Of a stretch of 64,000 bases of DNA, positions 27,939 to 40,194 are shown piece after piece (position 1 is the stretch's first letter; each line of letters starts with the position of its first letter). The notes under the pieces were generated by a model. That model searched no databases. It saw nothing but the letters and a program-made list of their open reading frames with translations, and was not told the origin of the DNA. This DNA comes from Pseudodesulfovibrio alkaliphilus (GTDB lineage Bacteria; Desulfobacterota; Desulfovibrionia; Desulfovibrionales; Desulfovibrionaceae): assembly GCF_009729555.1 (NCBI RefSeq), contig NZ_WODC01000003.1, positions 293,784-357,783 of the forward strand. Reading direction: 5' to 3'. The position numbers and the translations under genes were made by a program.

Positions 27939-28850
27939 TTATTCTTCAATGAAATAGTCAAGATTGATTTTCTTCAATTCGTAGACCTGAGCAATCTCGA
28001 CGCCGACGTTATACTTGACCATAAGCTCGGCCAGTCGGGAACCGGAGATCAGAACGATTCTTGTGTCGATGTTCCCGACATACTCCAGCGCCTCGCGGCT
28101 GAAATCTGACAGCGTTATGAAAACACCTTTTCGGGCCTTTTTGCCATGCAGTGCCCCGGCGAATTGTTGTATTTCTGGCCGCCCAACCGTTTTTGCCCAC
28201 CGCTTCGCCTGAACATAGACGACATCAAGGCCAAGCTTGTCTTCATTGATAATGCCGTCTATGCCCTCGTCAGCCCCGTTTCCGGTCAGCGTGGCTGCCT
28301 CATGGAGCGACTCGCCATAACCCATGGCCAAGAGCAAATCCACGACCAGGCGTTCAAAAAAACGCGGGGGGCACTCCCTGATCCGCGCAATCAATTCGGA
28401 AGTCAAATCCTTCGACGCCAGATGAAGGCCGTACTCCATGTGATCCTGTGGTGTTTTCGCGTCACAGCTCATGCCTGAAGAGGCCTCGCCGCCATCGGAG
28501 TTGCCACTGCCCTCCCTGAATTTCCTGAACTCGGGAAACGCCATCAGGTCCTTGATAGTGAGCTTGTCGGGCTTCCGGCTGAGTACGTCGATCCCCCGCT
28601 GGGTAATCCCGTACCAACCTCGTTGTTTTGATTCAATGAGGCCTGCCTGCTTCAGGTACGATTTCCCCCAAGCGACACGATTGTTGAAAACCCTTTGCTT
28701 TCCGCTTGGCAGCAATCTCCTCCTCTCCTCGTCGGTCAGCACGAACACCTTGGAAATGGCCTCGAATATTTCCTGATTTGAACGGCTGTTGCCATCTTGA
28801 AGAAACTCGAGAACAGGCAGAATGAGGGTTTGGAAATCAGGAATTGCCAT
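27939..28850 (-). CDS. mrr: Mrr-type restriction endonuclease
   Basis: A 303-residue type IV restriction enzyme that cuts DNA carrying modified bases. The N-terminal ~100 residues are a winged-helix Mrr_N domain (FQTLILPVLEFLQDG, RVFNNRVAWGKSYLKQAGLI, RGWYGITQRGIDVL). The C-terminal nuclease domain has RFFERLVVDLLLAMGYGES, GADEGIDGIINEDKLGLD and the catalytic YVQAKRW. Lower GC content and codon use than the flanking genes suggest acquisition. No methyltransferase accompanies it, as expected for a modification-dependent enzyme. Confidence 0.92.
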   Translation of the reverse strand: MAIPDFQTLILPVLEFLQDGNSRSNQEIFEAISKVFVLTDEERRRLLPSGKQRVFNNRVAWGKSYLKQAGLIESKQRGWYGITQRGIDVLSRKPDKLTIKDLMAFPEFRKFREGSGNSDGGEASSGMSCDAKTPQDHMEYGLHLASKDLTSELIARIRECPPRFFERLVVDLLLAMGYGESLHEAATLTGNGADEGIDGIINEDKLGLDVVYVQAKRWAKTVGRPEIQQFAGALHGKKARKGVFITLSDFSREALEYVGNIDTRIVLISGSRLAELMVKYNVGVEIAQVYELKKINLDYFIEE

Positions 28851-28916: not shown

Positions 28917-31900
28917 TTACACAATTTCCCCGCGCCCTGCGTCGCCGCTCCCCACATGGCCTGGGGTGCCGAGGCGCAGGAGCATGCGGTCCAGCGCCTT
29001 GAGGTAGCCGGGGTAGCGCACGAGATAGAAGGACAGAGCCCTGGAGAAGTTCCGGCCCACAACGCCATCCACGAAGAGCTGCGACACGTCGCGCTCGCGC
29101 AGGAGCACCAGCTGGGACGTGAAGAAGATGCGCCGTTCCTCGGGCTTCATCTCCCGCAGCAGGGCGGCAAGGGCTGTGGCCGCCCGAGGCTGATACATCC
29201 AGAACGTCAGCAGGTCCAAGGCGTTGAGCATCACCGCCTTGTCCAGCTCGTCCACGACCTCGCCCCGCTCCCGCAACTTGCGCACCTCGCTGACCATGGT
29301 TTCCGGGTCGGCCATCATGCGCAGGGTGTCGCGCTCCGGGAAAAGGCTGTCCAGCCGGGCATACACGGACAACACCTGGGCGATCTTGCCCCGGTAGTCC
29401 CACAGGCGCAGACGCACGTTGGCCCCCCGGTCGGCCAGCCCCTCAATGGCGCCCGCCACGCAATCCGAAGCGAGCTTGGAGATGACGGCCGCCCACTGCT
29501 GGAGCACCGGATCGACCTGGGCCACGCCCCCTGCCGCCAGGGCCAGCCCGGCCGCCCAGTTGAAGGCCACGGCCAGGGGGATGGAGAGTGCGCTGCGGAA
29601 GAGATTCCAGAAGGCCGCCTCCCTGGGCAGACCCCGGAACATGTTGTGGCTGAAGATATACAGGCCGTTGGTCAGCCCCATGACCGCATAGAGCAGTACC
29701 GGGCTGGTTGCGGTGTTGATGCCCAGGCCCGCGTCGAGGAGCACCCCCTTGCACAGCCAGTCGAGCAGGGGCACTGAAAACCCGGTGAACATCAGGGAAT
29801 CCGCGATGCGGCTCCAGTTGACGTACTGGTGCCAGCGCAGCAGCGAGAGGCTGCCCACCCCGCCCCCGCCCAGCACGGACTGGACCACGTTGCGCCCGGC
29901 CGTGATCCCCAGCCAGATGAAGGCTCCCAAATAGGCCAGCAGCCACCAATCCTTGCTCAAGGAAAAGGTCAGGAAGGCGGGAATGAACCCGAGCAGAACC
30001 TTGAGCCAGTTGCGCAGGGTGGTGTTGAGATAAAAGGGCGAGAGACGATCGGCGCGGTGGCGGGGACCGGGTTCGGCAAGCGACAGGCCGTTGCTGGTCT
30101 CGGTCAGCCCGCCGAGCATGGCGATGTTGCCGCAGCGGCCCGGAGTGATGCGCGTACGCTCGGAAATATAGTCCACCTCGCGGGCCTGACCCAGTCGGCG
30201 CAGCACGGGTACGCGCTCCAATGCCGCCCGGACCCTGCGGCCAAGCGGCGTCACGGCCTCCACCGGCCAATAGGTGTGGCGCTCGCGCACCGTGGTGGCG
30301 ATGGGCAGGCACACACCGCGGCCCAGTCCCCGTCTCGACCCCTCGCGGGCCAGATGGGCGGCGCGGGCTGGCAGGGTCTCGAGCACGGCGAACCCCATGC
30401 CGAAGCTGCGCGAACTGTGCCCGGTGGACCCGCTTCCGATGCAGGTATGCAGGGAGTTGTGGCGGTAGAGCCCGGCCAGGGTGTTGATGTCCGCCAGGAT
30501 CTCGCGCAGCTTGACCGCCTCGTCGCTCTCGGCGCAGTCCATGTCGCCAAGGCAGAGCTGGTCGATGTTCTCGAGGAGAATGCGCTTGAGCGCCACCACG
30601 TCGCCCTGGTTGAGAGCCTCGCGCAGGGCACCCAGGTCCTCGCCGTCGCGGAAGCGGTTGTCGGCCACGTCGCGCAGGCTGAACAGCTCAAGATGATTGA
30701 TCATGCCCCTGGCGTCGTAGAGCAGTTCGATGACATCGGCCTGGGTCAGGTCCACGGTGTTGAGCACAAATCGGTTCACCGAGTGCAGCCCGCGAAGCCG
30801 GTGCATCAGGTCCGGGGGCGAAAGGGTCAGCAGCTCGGGATCATCCGCCGAAGGGGCCATGGGATTGGGCAGGCCGGGGTTGTCTCCGGGCAGGAGATAG
30901 CGCTGCACAAAGGTGTCGGCGTCCAGGGCGTCCAGCGTGTCCATCTGCATCTCTATGTCGCGGCGGGCATCGGGATCATCCGTGGCGGCGAACTCGCGAC
31001 GCAGCGCGTCGGCGCGCTCGCGCATCAGGGGCAGGGCGGTCCTGTGGATGAAGCCGCCCAGATGCAGCAGCGAGGGTTGGCCCGAACCCACGAACCCCTC
31101 GAACTCCTCGCGCACAAGACGGGGCAGGTCCAGGCCGAACTCGCGCAGGATCGAGGCCCGGTGCTGATTGTTGAACGCCTCAAGCGCGGCGAACACGTAT
31201 TTGCGACGGAAGCCGGAAGCCTCCCGCCCCTGCGCCATGAAGTCGCGCATGGGGCCGGACTCCAGAAAGCGCAGATAATCGCCCTGCTCGGTGAATCCCT
31301 TGGGCTCCCAGATGATGTTCACGAACCGCTCGCGATGCCGGGCGGCCAGCTCCACGCCGATATGGACCTCCACCTCCATGATCCGGGCCGCCTCCAATAG
31401 CTCCCGGGCCACATCAGGCCGCACGAAATTGTAGTACACCACGGTCAGCCGCCGGATGCCCTTGATCCAGGCGTCCATGATCAGGTGGGTGGGCGACTTG
31501 CGGCCCTTGGTGTTGGCGTCGTGGACCCGATCGTCAAAGGTGAGCTGGTTCCACGCCTCGGGCATTTCCATGAGATGGTACTTGGCCAGCTGCGCCCGGA
31601 TCATGCGCGGTCTGCCGGTGGCCGCCACGCGAAACTCATGGGCCAGCTTGAGCTGCTCCAGGCTGCCGCGGGGGGCTCGCACCAGCTCCTTCATGATCTG
31701 CAAGAGCACCCTGGCCGTGTTGCACCGCATGAATCCGGTGGGCGCGGTCAGCACCTCGTCGCGCAGGGAGCGCAGGGCCTGGAGCCGTTCGCTGGCCAAC
31801 CCGGTCTCCAGGGAGCCGAGCAGGCTGACCACGGCGTAGGCGATGCGCAGATTGGCCGAGGAGGCCAGCGCCTTGATGCCGTTGGGATGCAGGAAGGGCT

Positions 31901-32018
31901 CAAGCAGCGTCTTGACATCGCGCCCCTGCCGCCGGGCGGGGTCGAGCACGTCGTTGACCACGGCCAGCAATTGATGGTCCGAGGGGTCGAAAAAAATGCG
32001 GGGAATGCGGGGCAGCAT
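28917..32018 (-). CDS. Large conserved-looking membrane protein of unknown function
   Basis: I do not recognise this 1033-residue protein. The N-terminal two thirds (about 1-680) are soluble-looking and rich in Arg and Leu. The segment roughly 690-870 has several hydrophobic helices, among them LKVLLGFIPAFLTFSL, LLAYLGAFIWLGITAGRNVV, and VLLYAVMGLTNGLYIF. The last ~150 residues are again soluble. It contains no nuclease, kinase or heme motif I can see, apart from scattered Cys such as ITPGRCGNIAMLGG. The ATG at 32018 is preceded by AGAGG at eight bases. It diverges from the octaheme cytochrome gene across a 248-base gap, so a shared control region is possible. Confidence 0.85.
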   Translation of the reverse strand: MLPRIPRIFFDPSDHQLLAVVNDVLDPARRQGRDVKTLLEPFLHPNGIKALASSANLRIAYAVVSLLGSLETGLASERLQALRSLRDEVLTAPTGFMRCNTARVLLQIMKELVRAPRGSLEQLKLAHEFRVAATGRPRMIRAQLAKYHLMEMPEAWNQLTFDDRVHDANTKGRKSPTHLIMDAWIKGIRRLTVVYYNFVRPDVARELLEAARIMEVEVHIGVELAARHRERFVNIIWEPKGFTEQGDYLRFLESGPMRDFMAQGREASGFRRKYVFAALEAFNNQHRASILREFGLDLPRLVREEFEGFVGSGQPSLLHLGGFIHRTALPLMRERADALRREFAATDDPDARRDIEMQMDTLDALDADTFVQRYLLPGDNPGLPNPMAPSADDPELLTLSPPDLMHRLRGLHSVNRFVLNTVDLTQADVIELLYDARGMINHLELFSLRDVADNRFRDGEDLGALREALNQGDVVALKRILLENIDQLCLGDMDCAESDEAVKLREILADINTLAGLYRHNSLHTCIGSGSTGHSSRSFGMGFAVLETLPARAAHLAREGSRRGLGRGVCLPIATTVRERHTYWPVEAVTPLGRRVRAALERVPVLRRLGQAREVDYISERTRITPGRCGNIAMLGGLTETSNGLSLAEPGPRHRADRLSPFYLNTTLRNWLKVLLGFIPAFLTFSLSKDWWLLAYLGAFIWLGITAGRNVVQSVLGGGGVGSLSLLRWHQYVNWSRIADSLMFTGFSVPLLDWLCKGVLLDAGLGINTATSPVLLYAVMGLTNGLYIFSHNMFRGLPREAAFWNLFRSALSIPLAVAFNWAAGLALAAGGVAQVDPVLQQWAAVISKLASDCVAGAIEGLADRGANVRLRLWDYRGKIAQVLSVYARLDSLFPERDTLRMMADPETMVSEVRKLRERGEVVDELDKAVMLNALDLLTFWMYQPRAATALAALLREMKPEERRIFFTSQLVLLRERDVSQLFVDGVVGRNFSRALSFYLVRYPGYLKALDRMLLRLGTPGHVGSGDAGRGEIV

Positions 32019-32266
32019 GATCAAAACCTCTCACGCCACGGTCGGCGGCCGGGCGTAACCTGATTGTCAAAACTATGTGCCTCTTTTCTCAATTCCAGCG
32101 ATCCACCTGAAATGTCAAGCAGAACGTCGCGTGCAGACGCGGGCCTGCCGGTCGGATGTGATAATAAGCCAAAGGGCGTTGCGCTTTGCCGAAGATGTGG
32201 GTAAGAATGGAGACATACCCATACCCCCCTTGGGATGGGGGGAGAGGCATTCACAAGGAGGACTTC

Positions 32267-33970
32267 ATGCGTAGACCTGTCTGGGGACTGTTGCTCCTGG
32301 CCCTTGCCTGCACAATGCTGTGCGGGCAGGCCGCCCTCGCTGCCGAGGACACGGCGCCGGGTCGCGCCCTGGCCATCCAGGCCACCAGGGCCAAGCCCGA
32401 GGTGCGCAGCACCACTGCCGACCACAGCAGATTCAAGGAATTGCATTTCGACGCTGAGAAACAGAAGACCATGCAACCCGAGGAGGTGACCCAAACCTGT
32501 CTTGGCTGCCACAACCTTGCAGCCCTCCAGTTTCACCAAACCATCCACTGGACCTGGCGCGACACCGAGGGCCAGCCCGAGAACTTCGGCAAGGGGGCTC
32601 TCTCGGTCAACAACTTCTGAATAAACATCATCAGCAACGAGGCTCGTTGCACCTCATGCCACGCCGGCTACGGCTGGAAGGATGACACCTTCGACTTCAC
32701 GGCCCAGGAAAAGGTTGACTGTCTGGTCTGTCACGAGCAGACAGGCTCCTACCGCAAATACCCCTCGGGCGCGGGCTATCCCGCCCCCTACGTGGAAGAC
32801 CCGGACAATCCGGGAACCCAAAAGGGTGTGCCCTTTCCCGGGGAAAGCAAGCCCTACTTCGCCCCGGACTGGTCCAGGGTGGCCCAGTCCGTGGCCCGCC
32901 CCTCGCGCACGAACTGCGGCTCCTGCCATTTCTACGGCGGCGGAGGCGACGCAGTGAAGCACGGCGATCTGGACTCCACCATGGCCCGTCCGCCCAAGAC
33001 CCTGGACGTGCACATGGGCACACGCGAATCCGGCGGCCAGGACTTCTCCTGCGTTCGCTGCCACACCACACACAGCCATCACATCGCCGGGCGCATCTAC
33101 GAGACCCCTGCGGCGGCCGAGCGCAAGAGTCTGCTCCAGGACGACCTGGGCGACAAGATCCTCTGCGAATCCTGCCACGGCACCGAGCCGCACCAGAGCG
33201 GCGGCATGTCCGCAAAGATCAACGACCACACGGACAAGGTCTCCTGCCAGGCCTGCCACATTCCCGAGTACGCCCGCGCCCAGTCCACCAAGATGTGGTG
33301 GGACTGGTCCAAGGCCGGACAGCTCATGGACGGCAAGGAAGTGGTCATGGGCCCGGACGGCAAATCCGTCTTTGACAAGAAAAAGGGCGAGTTCCGCTGG
33401 GAAAAGAACGTGGTGCCCGAATACTACTGGTTCGACGGCACCCTGGACCACGTCACCGTGCAGGACCCCATCGACCCCACGGCCGAGGTCTGGCTGAACA
33501 GGCCAAAGGGTTCGGCGGACGATCCCAACTCGCGCATCATGCCCTTCAAGGTCCACCGGGCCATGGCGCCCTACGACAAGGTCAACAAGGTCATGACCAT
33601 CCCGCACCTGTTCCCCTATGACAAAAACGACGGCACCGCCTATTGGAAGGGGTTCGACTGGAACCGGGCCATAGAGGTGGGCATGGAAAAGGCCGGTCAG
33701 CCCTATAGCGGTGAGTTCGGCTTTGTGGAGACGGCCTACGTCTTCCCCACCACCCACATGGTGGCGCCCAAGAACGAGGCCCTGCCCTGCGAGGCGTGCC
33801 ACTCGCGCCAGAGTCGGCTGGCGTCCATTACCGAACTCTACCTGCCAGGCCGCGACACTTTCGCCCTGGTGGACGCTGCGGGCTGGGTCGGCGTGGCCGG
33901 GGCCATCGTGGCCGTCATCATCCACGGCCTGATGCGCTTTGTCTCCGGCCTGAGAAGGAAGGAGGAATAG
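32267..33970 (+). CDS. Octaheme c-type cytochrome (OTR family) with a predicted selenocysteine
   Basis: A 567-residue exported cytochrome, read through an in-frame TGA at 32618-32620 (codon 118). It has a signal peptide (residues 1-26, ALA cleavage) and eight CxxCH sites: CLGCH (78), CTSCH (128), then CLVCH, CGSCH, CVRCH, CESCH, CQACH and CEACH. The C-terminus has one membrane helix and a basic tail. Two hemes lie before and just after the TGA and the frame keeps its heme motifs throughout, so this is not a broken gene. In the family the TGA position is a cysteine in NNFC, next to the active-site heme of the Shewanella enzyme (from memory). Such enzymes reduce nitrite, hydroxylamine or tetrathionate. 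AAGGAGG sets the start; cytochrome b follows. Confidence 0.85.
32618..32650 (+). promoter_or_regulatory. UGA codon with SECIS-like hairpin
   Basis: The in-frame TGA at 32618-32620 is followed after 13 bases by a perfect seven-base stem, GCAACGA (32634-32640) and TCGTTGC (32644-32650), with a GGC loop. The tip G lies about 20 bases after the UGA. Bacterial SECIS elements are short stem-loops inside the reading frame just after UGA, with G-rich tips, so the placement fits. The assignment is by eye and not folded computationally. Confidence 0.65.
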
Positions 33971-34650: not shown

Positions 34651-34685
34651 AAAGGGAACCGGGCCGGACGGCCCCGGTTCCCTTT
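34651..34685 (+). terminator. Terminator after the octaheme cytochrome operon
   Basis: A long GC-rich arm at 34651-34665 pairs with 34670-34685 (one bulged base), with AAAGGG/CCCTTT closing the stem. A short T tract follows within the stem's 3' end. It lies 21 bases after the cytochrome b stop. Confidence 0.75.
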
Positions 34686-34803
34686 GCTGTTCCGGCATAC
34701 CGACGCTCTTGCCCCGCGCCGCTGGCGCACGACGCCCGGTTGTGCTAGCCCAAGGGGACAAGGCGGGATGCGCCCGCCGCAACGCCGAGCCGGAGGTCGC
34801 CCC

Positions 34804-37800
34804 ATGAACGCCGCCAAGCTGAAAACCCTCGTCATCATCGTCCTCGCCCTGGTGGTGGCCGTTCAGGCCGTCATGCTCGCCCGGTCCCCTTCCCCTTCCG
34901 GCGGCCTTGCGGTTGACGAGGTGCGGGTCAGCCCGGACCGCACCGCCATCGAAGTGGCCTTGTCCGGCCCGGCAGACACGGCGTCCATCCCGGCCGAGGA
35001 CGCTGCCGCCATCCTCCCGGCCCTGGATGGACGGTGGAGATGGGCCAATCCCTACCTGCTCCGCTTCGAGACCAGGACGCGCCTGGCCGAGGACGCGGAA
35101 TACACCGTGGAGATGCAGCCAGCCCTGCCCCTTGAGGGCGGGCGGTCCTTCACCGTGGGCACCGGCTCCTTTGCCCTTGCCTCCCTCTCCCTGGCCGAAC
35201 GGGCAGGCGACGCCCCGGCCAGCGCGGTGATCGCGGCAACCCTGGAGTTCACCGGGCCGGTGTCGCCCGAAGACATCCTGGCCCATGCCCGGCTCGTCAA
35301 CGAGGCGGACGGCCGCGATATCCCCCTTCGGGCCATGACCTCGTGGAGTTCCCGTTACATGGAATTGCGTTCGGACCCGGTACCCAAGACCCCGGAAGGG
35401 GATACCTATGTCCTGACCGTGTCGCGGACCCTGAAAAAGGCGGGCTCGGCCCTGTCCCTGGGACGCGACGCCACGGCCTCCATCCCGGTGCGGCTGGACC
35501 CGGTCCTGGCCTATCGCGGGGCCGATGCCTGGGCCTCGGCCACAGGCTCGGGCATCCGGCTGACCTTTTCCACGCCAATGGACGCCCGCTCCGCGGCCCC
35601 CTTCATCTCCCTCAAACCCGATGCCGACCACTCCCTGACCGCTGACGGCACCGCCCTGCTCCTGACCGGCGGCCTCGCGCCCGGCATGCGCTACACCGTC
35701 ACCCTGCGCCAGGGGCTGACAGCCGCCGACGGCGCAACCCTGAACAGCGATGAAACCACCACCCTGACCGTACCGGACATTCCCCCGTCCGTGGATTTCG
35801 TGGGCACCGGCCTGTTCCTGCCCCCGGGCCGCAAGGCCGGGCTGGCCCTGACCGCCATCAATGCAAACCGGGTGGAGCTGCGCGTGGACCGGGTCTACCC
35901 CAACAACCTCTTCACCATGCTTGGCGATTACGGCAGCCGCCTTTTCGAGGACACCTGGGACTATGGCGGGGTGCCCGACTCCCTGGGCGGCAGGATATTC
36001 GAGGCCACCCTGCGGACCGGGGGCGAGCCCAACGTCCCGGTGCGCCAGCCTGTTCGCCTCGACGCCATCCGCTCCGGCGAGCGCGGCCTGTTCCGCGTCA
36101 GCGCGTCCATTCCAGGCCAGCCAGGGGTCAAGCGATGGCTGACCCTGACCGACATCGGCCTGACCGCCAAGCGCGGGGCCGAGGGCTTCCTGGTCTGGAC
36201 AGTGTCCAACACGACCCTGGCACCCCTGCCCGGCACCCGCCTGACCCTGATCAGCGACAGGAATCAGCGCCTCGGCTCGGCCGTGGCCGATGCCGGCGGC
36301 GCAGCCCGGATCGCCCTGCCCGCCCCGGACGGCAGCAGTCCCGGCGCCCCTGAAACGACCGACCGCGGGCCGGGCGCTCCCTTCATGCTCCTGGCCGAGC
36401 GTGACGACGACTTCGCCTTTCTCCTCCTCTCCCGCGCTGCAGTGGATACCACGGGCCTCGACGTGGCCGGGACCGAGACGACAGCCTCGGGCCTGCGGGC
36501 CTACCTCTACGGAGAGCGCGACCTGTACCGCCCGGGCGAAACCGTCCAGGGCATGGCCGTGGTCCGGCGCGACGACCTGAGCGCACCGGGGTCCATGCCC
36601 CTGACCCTTGTGCAGCGCGATCCGCGTGGCCGCGAGGTACGCAAGCTGCGCCTGGACAGCGGTCAGGCAGGAGCCGCCCCCTTTTCCCTGGACCTTCCCG
36701 ACTACGCCTTGACCGGCACCCACGCCCTGGAACTGCTGGCAGGCGACACGGTCATCGGCTCCCGCCCCCTCAAGGTGGAGGAGTTCGTCCCGGACCGGAT
36801 CAAGGTGGCTGTGGACACCCCGGCGGACGCCTTTGCCCCGGGCCGCGAGATCAGGGCCGGGGTCAGCGCCGAATATCTCTTTGGTCCGCCAGCCTCGGCC
36901 CTGCCCGTGACCCTGCGCGTCCAGCTCCGTCCGGCCCCCTTCGCGGCCCAGGGGTATGAGGGCTACCTCTTTGGCGACCCGGACGCACCCTTCGCTCCCC
37001 AGGAGGTCTTTTCCGAGGATGCGGCCCTCGACGCCGAGGGACGCACCGAGTTCTCCTTCGCCATCCCCTCTGGCCTGCTGCCCCCGGCCGCCCTTGAGGC
37101 GATCCTTCTCGCCCGCGTCAGCGAGGCGGGCGGGCGCGGGGTCACGGCCCGCAAACGGGTGGCGATCCATCCCCACCCCTACTACCTCGGCATGCGCCAG
37201 ATGGAGCGCAAGGGGTTGGACCCGGGCAAACCCGCGGCCTTCGACTTCGTGGCCGTAACGCCCGACGGCCAGCCCGCGGACCACGGCCCCCTCTCGGCCC
37301 GACTCTACCGCGACCGCTGGAGCACCGCCGTACGCCTGACCCCCTCGGGCGGCTATCGCTACGAATCGGTCAACGACCCCGAACTGCTGGCCGAGCGACC
37401 CATCCCGGCCGGGACCGGCGCGGGCTCCGTGACCTTCACCCCGCCCGACCACGGCAGCTACCGGGTGCACATCGCCCCGGCCGGAACCGACGGTACCGGA
37501 GCGTCCGCCGTGGCCGCCTTTTTCTGCGGCGGCTGGGGCGACTCGCCCTGGGCGCTGGAAAACCCGGCCCGCGTTGAGCTGGTGGCGGACAAGGACCACT
37601 ACCTGACCGGGGAAAACGCCCGCATCCAGATCCGCGCTCCCTTTCCGGGCCGACTCCTGGTTGCCGTGGAAGGCCGCTTTGTCAACGACGTGCGCGTGGT
37701 GGAGCTTGCGGGCAACACGGGAGAGGTCGTCATCCCTGTTCGGCAGACATACGGACCCAACGTCCATGTCACGGCCCTGCTGGTACGCAAGGCGTCGGAC

Positions 37801-40194
37801 GTGGCCGAAGGGTCCGTGGGACGCGCCTTCGGGGCCATCCCCCTCCTGGTGGACACCGGCCTCAACCGGCTGGATCTGCAGGTGGACGCCCCGGCCGAAG
37901 TCCGACCAGAAGGGGAGCTTGAACTGGCAGTCCGCCTGCCGGACGGCATGCGCTCCGATGCGCTGGTGACTCTCGCGGCGGTGGACGAGGGCATCCTTCA
38001 GCTCTCGGGCACTGGCGACCCGGACCCCTTCGGCTTTTTCCACGCCCGCCGCGCCCTGGGCGTGACCAGTTATGACACCTTTGCCATGCTCTATCCCGAT
38101 CTGGCCCGGATTCTGGGCGCGGCCGCGGCAGGCGGCGGCATGGACCTGTCGGCCGAGAGCCAGTTCATCCGCACCGAGTCCATCCGCCGGGTTGAACCCG
38201 TGGCCTTCTGGTCCGGCCCCCTGGCCGTGGGCGAGGACAGCACCGTGCGCTGGCGCGTGGACCTGCCCGATTTCCAGGGGGCGCTGCGCGTGGTGGCCGT
38301 GGGCCTGGACGGCAAACGGTTCGGCACGGGCCGCGCCATGGTCCGGGTGCGCTCGCCCCTGGCCGTCACCCCGACCCTGCCGCGCTTCATGGCTCCGGGC
38401 GACGACATTGAGATGCCCGTGACCGTGCGCAATGATCTTGAAGGAGAACGCGCCGCCGTCACTCTGACCGTATCGGCCTCGGGTGGGCTGACCTCCCCGG
38501 CCGAACCCCTGACCCTCGACCTTGAGCGCGGCGGGGAGCAGACCGTGTATGTGCCGGTCTCGGCCCTGCCCGGACCGGGTGCGCAAGGCACGGTCGTGGT
38601 CACGGCTTCGGGCACGGCTTCGGGCGTCACCGAGACGCGCCGGGTGATTACCCGCCTGCCCGTCCGCCCGGCCGCGCCCCTGCGCCGCCAGCTGGCCTTC
38701 GGGGCGCTGGACGGACCATCCGGCGAGCTGGTCCCGGCGGCCCAGGGCTTTGTGCCCGGCACCGCCACCCGCTCCGTGGCCCTGGGAAGCCTGCCCCTGG
38801 CCCGGTTCGCGGGCAGGCTCGAAAACCTCCTGAACTATCCCTACGGCTGCGCCGAGCAGGTGGCCTCCCAGGCCCTGCCCCTGATCCGCTTCGGCGATCT
38901 GGCCCGCCAATTCGCTCCCTCCCTGGCGGGCGAGCGCGGCCCGGCCTTCATGGTCCAGTCCGCCCTCATGCGCCTGCAATCCCTGCAAACCGACAACGGC
39001 GGCTTTGCCCTGTGGCCGGGGGGGGACGAGGACTCCGCCTGGGTGAGCGCATACGTCACGCTGTTCCTGGTGGAAGCGGGCAGGGCGGGCTATGGTTCGC
39101 CGGGCATGACCGGCCGCGCCCTGACGCGCATGGCCGAAACAGCCGTCTCGCGTCCGGCCGACCCCGATGCGGCCGCCCTGGCCCTCTTCAACCTCGCCCT
39201 GGCGGGGCGCCCGGAACGGGGGGCCATGGACGAAATGCGCGACAGAAAGCCCGGCCCCCTGCCGGACCTGGCCCGCACGCTGCTTGCCAGCGCCTACGCC
39301 CTGGCCGGAGACACGGACTCCTTCAACGGGTTGCTGGCCGACGCGCCGCGGGCGGGCGAGGGGCGCCAGCCAGGGGGAGGCATGGGCTCGGGCCTTCGCG
39401 ATGCGGCCCTCATGCTTCTGGCCCTGGTCGAGGCAGCGCCCGGCGATGCGCTGGTTCCCAGGCTGGCGGCGGATGTGGCCCGGCGCATGACCACCCCGGA
39501 CTGGGGCACCACCCAGGAGAACGGTCTGGCCTTCGCCGCGCTGGGTCGAACCCTGGCCGGGATCGATCCCGCGCCCCTGACCGGCCGCCTTGAGGCCGGA
39601 GACTGGGCAGGGGAATTTACCGACGCAGCCAGCGTCACCCTGGACACGGACGTAACGGACGCCCCCCTTGTTGCGGATCTTGGCGCACACAACGCCACGG
39701 TCTACTGGTCGGTGATCACCCGCGGAGTGCCTGCGCCGGAAAGCCTTGCTGCCCGGAGCCAGGGTCTGGAGATCCGGCGCACTTTCCTTGACAGGTCAGG
39801 CGCGGTCGTGGACATGAGCGGACTGCCCCAGGGGGCGCTGGTTATCATGAAGACCGAGCTGCGGACCACGGGCGCGGCCGTGGAAAACGTGGCCGTCCAG
39901 TGCCTGCTCCCCGCCGGGCTGGAAGTGGAAAACCCGCGCCTGGAGACCTCGGAAACCGCGCTGCTGGCCCGTGACGACGAGCTGCCCCTCTCCGGCCACC
40001 AGGATCTGCGCGACGACAGGGTGCTCTTCTTCACCGATCTGCGCCGGCCGGGCTGGCATGCGGGCTACACGCAGCTCAGGGCCGTGACCCCTGGCCGTTT
40101 CGCCCTGCCTCCGGTCCAGGCCGAGGCCATGTACGACCCGGACATCGCGGCCTCGGACGCGCCCGCAGACATGGCCGTGACCCGCCGCCCCTAG
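34804..40194 (+). CDS. Alpha-2-macroglobulin family protein with thioester motif
   Basis: A 1796-residue envelope protein. Bacterial alpha-2-macroglobulins are thought to trap proteases in the periplasm and guard the cell when the wall is breached. An N-terminal hydrophobic anchor (about 8-25) lacks a clear lipobox, so it may be a signal anchor. MG-type beta domains follow, and the thioester motif GCAEQ (Cys about 1349) lies in NYPYGCAEQVASQALPL. The last part has repeated helical pairs typical of the thioester domain. GGAGG at eight bases sets the start. pbpC begins six bases after its stop, the usual bacterial pairing. Confidence 0.93.
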   Translation: MNAAKLKTLVIIVLALVVAVQAVMLARSPSPSGGLAVDEVRVSPDRTAIEVALSGPADTASIPAEDAAAILPALDGRWRWANPYLLRFETRTRLAEDAEYTVEMQPALPLEGGRSFTVGTGSFALASLSLAERAGDAPASAVIAATLEFTGPVSPEDILAHARLVNEADGRDIPLRAMTSWSSRYMELRSDPVPKTPEGDTYVLTVSRTLKKAGSALSLGRDATASIPVRLDPVLAYRGADAWASATGSGIRLTFSTPMDARSAAPFISLKPDADHSLTADGTALLLTGGLAPGMRYTVTLRQGLTAADGATLNSDETTTLTVPDIPPSVDFVGTGLFLPPGRKAGLALTAINANRVELRVDRVYPNNLFTMLGDYGSRLFEDTWDYGGVPDSLGGRIFEATLRTGGEPNVPVRQPVRLDAIRSGERGLFRVSASIPGQPGVKRWLTLTDIGLTAKRGAEGFLVWTVSNTTLAPLPGTRLTLISDRNQRLGSAVADAGGAARIALPAPDGSSPGAPETTDRGPGAPFMLLAERDDDFAFLLLSRAAVDTTGLDVAGTETTASGLRAYLYGERDLYRPGETVQGMAVVRRDDLSAPGSMPLTLVQRDPRGREVRKLRLDSGQAGAAPFSLDLPDYALTGTHALELLAGDTVIGSRPLKVEEFVPDRIKVAVDTPADAFAPGREIRAGVSAEYLFGPPASALPVTLRVQLRPAPFAAQGYEGYLFGDPDAPFAPQEVFSEDAALDAEGRTEFSFAIPSGLLPPAALEAILLARVSEAGGRGVTARKRVAIHPHPYYLGMRQMERKGLDPGKPAAFDFVAVTPDGQPADHGPLSARLYRDRWSTAVRLTPSGGYRYESVNDPELLAERPIPAGTGAGSVTFTPPDHGSYRVHIAPAGTDGTGASAVAAFFCGGWGDSPWALENPARVELVADKDHYLTGENARIQIRAPFPGRLLVAVEGRFVNDVRVVELAGNTGEVVIPVRQTYGPNVHVTALLVRKASDVAEGSVGRAFGAIPLLVDTGLNRLDLQVDAPAEVRPEGELELAVRLPDGMRSDALVTLAAVDEGILQLSGTGDPDPFGFFHARRALGVTSYDTFAMLYPDLARILGAAAAGGGMDLSAESQFIRTESIRRVEPVAFWSGPLAVGEDSTVRWRVDLPDFQGALRVVAVGLDGKRFGTGRAMVRVRSPLAVTPTLPRFMAPGDDIEMPVTVRNDLEGERAAVTLTVSASGGLTSPAEPLTLDLERGGEQTVYVPVSALPGPGAQGTVVVTASGTASGVTETRRVITRLPVRPAAPLRRQLAFGALDGPSGELVPAAQGFVPGTATRSVALGSLPLARFAGRLENLLNYPYGCAEQVASQALPLIRFGDLARQFAPSLAGERGPAFMVQSALMRLQSLQTDNGGFALWPGGDEDSAWVSAYVTLFLVEAGRAGYGSPGMTGRALTRMAETAVSRPADPDAAALALFNLALAGRPERGAMDEMRDRKPGPLPDLARTLLASAYALAGDTDSFNGLLADAPRAGEGRQPGGGMGSGLRDAALMLLALVEAAPGDALVPRLAADVARRMTTPDWGTTQENGLAFAALGRTLAGIDPAPLTGRLEAGDWAGEFTDAASVTLDTDVTDAPLVADLGAHNATVYWSVITRGVPAPESLAARSQGLEIRRTFLDRSGAVVDMSGLPQGALVIMKTELRTTGAAVENVAVQCLLPAGLEVENPRLETSETALLARDDELPLSGHQDLRDDRVLFFTDLRRPGWHAGYTQLRAVTPGRFALPPVQAEAMYDPDIAASDAPADMAVTRRP

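Follow-up and report, generated by a model that had tools for sequence, protein, structure and literature searches.

Cytochromes of the octaheme tetrathionate reductase (OTR) type reduce tetrathionate, nitrite and hydroxylamine, and activity has been reported for the Shewanella and Beggiatoaceae enzymes (PMC4484225, PMC6449678). The available text of two studies names heme 2 as the catalytic heme of OTR (PMC11024163, PMC4484225), and a conserved lysine is a heme ligand in OTR-type cytochromes (PMC11024163). Among the matches listed from the open-licence PMC literature, no text was found that gives a role to Cys64 of the Shewanella enzyme.

Two other multiheme systems offer partial parallels to the protein described here, which is encoded in the window (the whole 64,000-nucleotide stretch of Pseudodesulfovibrio alkaliphilus DNA that was analysed). 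For ExtKL of Geobacter (NF040886; PMC5877670), likewise a multiheme c-type cytochrome, a selenocysteine (Sec) has been proposed. However, in the available part of that source ExtKL belongs to another family and another gene cluster, and the window protein had no reported match to NF040886. TsdA, a dihaem thiosulfate dehydrogenase/tetrathionate reductase, carries at its active-site heme a cysteine that forms an S-thiosulfonate intermediate (PMC5146829). This is a mechanistic analogy only; the cysteine of TsdA is itself a heme ligand, whereas in the window protein a lysine is the expected ligand and the Sec would lie in the second shell.

A selenocysteine form of OTR has already been catalogued. 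Table 1 of PMC13188914 (AEM 2026) contains a line for a TIGR04315 octaheme c-type cytochrome with 1 Sec (WP_331457571.1), marked 'GenBank annotated' and with '-' as its motif, so the category already exists as annotation. The entry shares with the window gene its curated family and the single Sec, which likely occupies the same column as the window UGA. Unlike the present analysis, the entry says nothing, in the available part of the paper, on where the Sec lies, on its SECIS, or on its distribution and function. An earlier sequence-only reading of this DNA had known of no described case; that view must yield to the listing of the family as a selenoprotein, and holds in so far as the table is the sole mention found in the open-licence PMC literature, where no other paper naming a Sec form of OTR was found among the matches listed. 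As far as the literature searched extends, what is new here is the position of the Sec, two SECIS forms, their spread and a 13-heme paralogue.

The octaheme gene and its in-frame UGA

The octaheme c-type cytochrome gene lies at 32267..33970 on the forward strand. It begins with an ATG (32267-32269) preceded by AAGGAGG (32255-32261), ends with a TAG (33968-33970) and encodes 567 residues with UGA read as Sec. A single in-frame TGA (32618-32620) forms codon 118, and the frame is open on both sides of it. Eight CxxCH motifs start at residues 78, 128, 152, 217, 262, 300, 327 and 508, one of them upstream of the UGA and seven downstream. Outside the heme motifs, the Cys-type positions are residue 118 together with Cys15 and Cys19 of the predicted signal peptide. 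The protein belongs to the OTR family, as it matches the TIGR04315 profile with 576.8 bits (cut-off 375; profile positions 2-440 of 440) and combines the eight CxxCH motifs with the lysine ligand of heme 2.

Alignment with Shewanella oneidensis OTR (1SP3; E 1e-109) spans both halves of the protein. Counted along this alignment, the UGA codon falls on Cys64 of the segment SINNFC, 10 residues before the heme-2 CxxCH. Cys64 itself presumably lies by the active-site heme. The heme-2 motif, CTSCH (residues 128-132, 32648..32662, forward strand), corresponds to the catalytic heme of OTR in the available text of PMC11024163. Lys231 (DAVKHGD; codon at 32957..32959, forward strand) aligns with Lys153, again counted from the alignment, and is the expected distal ligand of heme 2. 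Sec118 would thus likely sit beside the catalytic heme 2. The two proteins share the eight heme motifs, Lys153 and the heme-2 motif, but differ in that Shewanella OTR has Cys64 in place of the UGA and, in the description of PMC6449678, is a soluble periplasmic protein; the window protein, by contrast, bears a hydrophobic C-terminal stretch, and its gene adjoins one for a cytochrome b561. The sequence-only reading had anticipated much of this, namely the clean frame around one TGA, the distribution of the heme motifs in a gene that is not decaying, and the placement of the TGA in the NNFC segment at the Shewanella cysteine beside the catalytic heme; the last point gains support from the sequence position, and the others agree with the coordinates and counts given above and with the codon-position differences given below.

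The occupancy of this column was compared among relatives. A class-wide TIGR04315 search gave matches in 112 of 348 genomes and a phylum-wide draw in 93 of 395, to which 80 named loci from GTDB species contigs were added. The resulting main set of 274 loci was reduced to 266 unique rows by dropping 8 duplicates, and one row has an N at the column. With the window included, the column holds Cys in 198 rows, UGA in 67 and is unread in 1, a ratio biased toward UGA because the main set has every TGA row of the class and phylum searches but only part of the others. The 124 class rows divide into 92 Cys and 32 UGA, and the 80 named GTDB loci (duplicates included) into 72 Cys, 7 UGA and 1 unread. A completion set made of the remaining class and phylum rows (52 loci, 51 unique frames, mostly distant; L340 lacks this region) showed Cys in 36 frames, a gap in 13, Thr in 1, Ala in 1 and UGA in none. 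The Thr occurs in L303, which scores over the TIGR04315 cut-off, and the Ala in L305, which scores below it.

The column is therefore generally Cys or UGA; near relatives depart from this only rarely, and a distant branch does not have the position. This pairing of UGA with Cys in homologues is the pattern by which bacterial selenoproteins are recognised. As 67 of the 266 unique rows share the UGA at this codon, neither sequencing error nor chance accounts for it, and other genera also conserve it. Among named relatives, the nearest one found is Pseudodesulfovibrio pelocollis SB368, which is 89% identical, has the same protein as locus L102 and keeps the UGA. The equivalent of Lys153 and the heme-2 Cys and His residues are present in all 67 UGA rows and all 198 Cys rows of the main set.

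Predicted SECIS hairpins and selenocysteine machinery

Downstream of the window UGA, a predicted SECIS hairpin (32634..32650, forward strand) consists of the arms GCAACGA and TCGTTGC, which form a 7-bp stem, and a 3-nt GGC loop that begins 20 nt downstream of the UGA. Within the 3' arm lies the codon for the first Cys of the second heme motif. Hairpins of two types recur in the main set, to which the stem counts, proline counts and trees below also refer, and one or the other stands at a fixed distance in 65 of 67 UGA genes and in 1 of 198 Cys genes. Type A, GCAACGAGGCTCGTTGC, is found in 35 UGA genes including the window, starting in all of them exactly 13 nt after the UGA; 33 rows have GCAACGAGGCTCGTTGC and 2 have GCAACGAGTCTCGTTGC. 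It forms a 7-bp stem whose loop, GGC or GUC, lies 20 nt downstream of the UGA. Type B, CTGGTGCAGGTGCACCAG, is unrelated to type A in sequence and occurs in 30 UGA genes, all outside the window's class (L148, L158, L159, L162, L164, L166, L169, L171-L173, L175, L189, L196, L226, L239, L256-L258, L260, L262-L272). It starts about 17-18 nt after the UGA, with 24 exact copies and 6 close variants, and places an AGGU or AGUU loop on a 7-bp stem 24 nt after the UGA. No hairpin of either type was found anywhere in the 52 completion-set loci.

The bSECIS model, in the available text of its source, comprises a loop of 3-9 nt, a stem of 4-16 bp, a loop position 16-37 nt after the UGA and a G within the first two loop positions (PMC13188914). 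Both hairpin types fall within these limits, the window with its 7-bp stem, GGC loop and 20-nt distance. Of the 67 UGA rows, 65 have a stem of at least 7 bp when the motif is ignored, as against 6 of the 198 Cys rows. Stems vary minimally within each type, with one compensated pair (L271), and covariation is therefore almost absent. An Rfam scan of 32560-32760 (201 bases) up to E 10 returned four chance-level matches and no SECIS family. RF00031, which we take to be the eukaryotic SECIS family, matched nowhere, the 14 controls included; it is the wrong model and hence uninformative here. Two distant TIGR04315-like loci below the cut-off, L273 and L274, have UGA at the column and no clear hairpin; they could represent a third kind of SECIS or a UGA that truly ends translation.

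Both hairpin types overlap the codons of the heme-2 motif, and the protein sequence at this site differs between Cys and UGA genes. Many Cys genes encode SNEPRC or SNWPRC, type A rows encode SNEARC or SNESRC (GNEARC in L061, L062 and L153), and type B rows mostly SNWCRC. The proline of SN(E/W)PRC is present in 138 of 198 Cys rows and in 0 of 67 UGA rows. In addition, the arginine codon is CGT in 35/35 type A rows, compared with 12/154 Cys rows having Arg there; in the window gene as a whole, CGT accounts for 3 of 29 Arg codons. Since a proline codon (CCN) would remove the G's of the loop, the simplest reading is that the RNA signal would dictate these codons. Once relatedness is counted, the association of proline with Sec is modest (10 independent pairs, 5.5 on average in the same direction and 0 in the opposite; sign test median p 0.031, range 0.031-0.25). 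With two SECIS types behind one codon, an RNA signal may constrain the protein sequence beside a heme-binding motif.

The genome (3.22 Mb, 29 contigs) encodes the machinery by which selenoprotein genes can be expressed. It has a tRNA-Sec (82.3 bits; confirmed by ARAGORN, anticodon UCA), SelB (367.6 bits), SelA (606.7 bits) and SelD (330.4 bits; L143, contig C4:110800-111729), in agreement with the sequence-only prediction of a selenoprotein, which had proposed a search for selA, selB, selC and selD. That prediction is strongly supported by this machinery, by the conservation of the UGA and by the Cys/UGA column; of the observations that would have spoken against it, sequencing error is countered by the UGA in other genera, and relatives with neither Cys nor Sec are confined to the few exceptions in the completion set. 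SelD itself contains one UGA, within KAAGUAAKI; an 8-bp hairpin lies downstream, its GGA loop at a distance of 20 nt from the UGA, so that this genome has a second gene with the same UGA-hairpin layout. Among genomes with a UGA-type OTR gene (matched by eye), SelA was found in 26 of 29 in the class and 29 of 31 in the phylum outside it; the 3 and 2 genomes lacking a match are all assemblies that are 81-94% complete. SelA presence is non-discriminating as an independent test, because most genomes carry it anyway (276 of 348 in the class, 355 of 395 in the phylum).

Exchange of cysteine and UGA, and a 13-heme paralogue

Trees were built with the trait columns removed, from 265 rows with FastTree and from 108 rows in a short IQ-TREE search. 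Both required 14 changes between Cys and UGA (at least 14 on the best trees). Type A accounts for 11-12 changes, at least 7 of them on well-supported branches, and type B for 2. The window's clade comprises 11 UGA rows and one Cys row. A single gain followed by losses was compared with repeated gains; with 14 changes on both trees, the counts cannot tell gain from loss.

Several rows appear to retain traces of an earlier state. L180, from a Desulfatitalea MAG, has a Cys codon (TGT) and yet a complete type A hairpin, the sole such case among the 198 Cys rows, and is an apparent relic of a recent Sec-to-Cys change. L060, L122 and P0001 have Cys at the column and Ala at the proline site. These relics make Sec-to-Cys conversion likely in several lineages. 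Conversions of this kind have precedents in other families (PMC1794560, in the part available).

The same UGA column, followed by a type A hairpin, is also present in a paralogue with 13 CxxCH motifs, found in 12 loci (L106, L110-L113, L118, L123, L125, L129, L131, L132 and L134). In L110, L112 and L125 its layout consists of an OTR domain, extra N-terminal c3/c7-like hemes and one heme near the C-terminus. Three genomes (G295, G310 and G055) contain both the 8-heme and the 13-heme UGA genes.

Putative function and alternative readings

The octaheme gene is followed after 2 bases by a cytochrome b561 gene (PF01292; 33973..34629, forward strand; 97.9 bits, cut-off 30.1), whose product is likely the quinol-side partner of the octaheme protein. 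By script, 21 of the 23 type A genes with 8 hemes were found to have a b561 gene downstream, and one of the two misses is the window, in which b561 is present by direct reading; among type B rows it was found in 24 of 30. Cys rows whose frame holds fewer than 11 heme motifs have it in 118 of 175 cases (6 flanks too short), and rows with 11 or more motifs in 0 of 35 (4 flanks too short). Residues 534-552 of the window protein (33866..33922, forward strand) form a hydrophobic stretch with a Kyte-Doolittle mean of 2.19 over 19 residues and are likely a membrane anchor. Together, the signal-like N-terminus, the hydrophobic C-terminus and the adjacent b561 suggest a membrane-attached, quinol-fed periplasmic enzyme.

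A working mechanism can be proposed from these features. The hairpin at 32634-32650 would be the binding site of SelB with Sec-tRNA(Sec), which would place Sec at the UGA (32618-32620); this insertion is the best-supported step. The 567-residue protein would then be exported, loaded with eight hemes and held by its C-terminal helix, while electrons from menaquinol would pass through the b561 of the adjacent gene to the octaheme protein. In the heme-2 pocket, the selenolate may serve as a nucleophile or gate on an S-S (tetrathionate or polythionate) or N-O substrate, with heme 2 supplying the electrons; the analogy with TsdA suggests that an S-S bond might be attacked by Sec118 as electrons arrive from heme 2. 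Of all parts of this scheme the substrate is the least certain, and we put a sulfur substrate for the Sec enzyme at somewhat better than even. As a redox site, a catalytic heme with a lysine ligand and a selenolate at its side would be unusual.

That the UGA and its conserved hairpin specify a predicted Sec, at a mostly conserved cysteine position likely beside heme 2, is in our view very probable. A UGA does end the neighbouring b561 gene, and were the UGA at codon 118 a true stop too, the locus would hold a decaying gene or a 117-residue monoheme protein, with the remainder started separately, as in the truncated database reading P0004 (an NCBI protein of 418 aa whose start lies downstream of the UGA). 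This is exceedingly improbable when UGA occupies the same codon in a quarter of the unique rows (67/266), a SECIS-like hairpin follows in nearly all of these (65/67) and all eight heme motifs are kept. Moreover, differences between the window gene and L102 after the UGA number 17, 16 and 84 at the three codon positions over 449 codons, and the excess at position 3 holds against four relatives, which indicates protein-level selection on the downstream part. Read-through as Cys, Trp or another ordinary residue, with no selenium involved, is also very improbable: insertion of Cys would be functionally neutral, given that most relatives have it, but ordinary suppression does not need a fixed hairpin, the genome has the sel genes and a tRNA-Sec whose anticodon is UCA, and the normal use of UGA as stop of b561 in the same operon argues against general reassignment.

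A further alternative accepts the selenoprotein but gives Sec118 a structural or protective role, for example against over-oxidation, in a protein that mainly wires electrons. The at least 14 interchanges of Cys and UGA on the best trees suggest that neither the fold nor the basic function depends on Sec, and the related cytochrome MmcA is an electron conduit (PMC11024163). However, in the available text of that study neither the second heme motif nor the lysine is present in MmcA, and their retention in 67/67 UGA rows points to an enzyme. We consider the non-catalytic role possible though rather unlikely, and a catalytic role for Sec118, by analogy, fairly probable.

Taken jointly, the Sec form of OTR may be a widespread, evolutionarily switching selenoenzyme of Desulfobacterota with selenium in a lysine-ligated heme pocket. 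Its two SECIS forms would have arisen separately, each accompanied by loss of the proline and by recoding at the heme-2 site, the 13-heme paralogue would share the Sec, and selenium would tune periplasmic S-S or N-O reductases; this combined claim seems to us slightly more apt to be right than wrong. Database entries cut short in the manner of P0004 exist for at least part of these genes, so that counts of this respiratory enzyme among sulfate reducers and organisms related to them are probably too low. Close relatives that differ naturally in Cys or UGA offer a direct way to test what selenium contributes.

Near the cytochrome pair, on the reverse strand, lie an Mrr-type restriction endonuclease gene (27939-28850; PF04471, PF14338) and an ORF of about 1035 residues (28917-32024), divergent to the cytochrome gene and with no Pfam match at 1e-3. 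A bacterial alpha-2-macroglobulin gene (34684-40194) directly follows the cytochrome pair.
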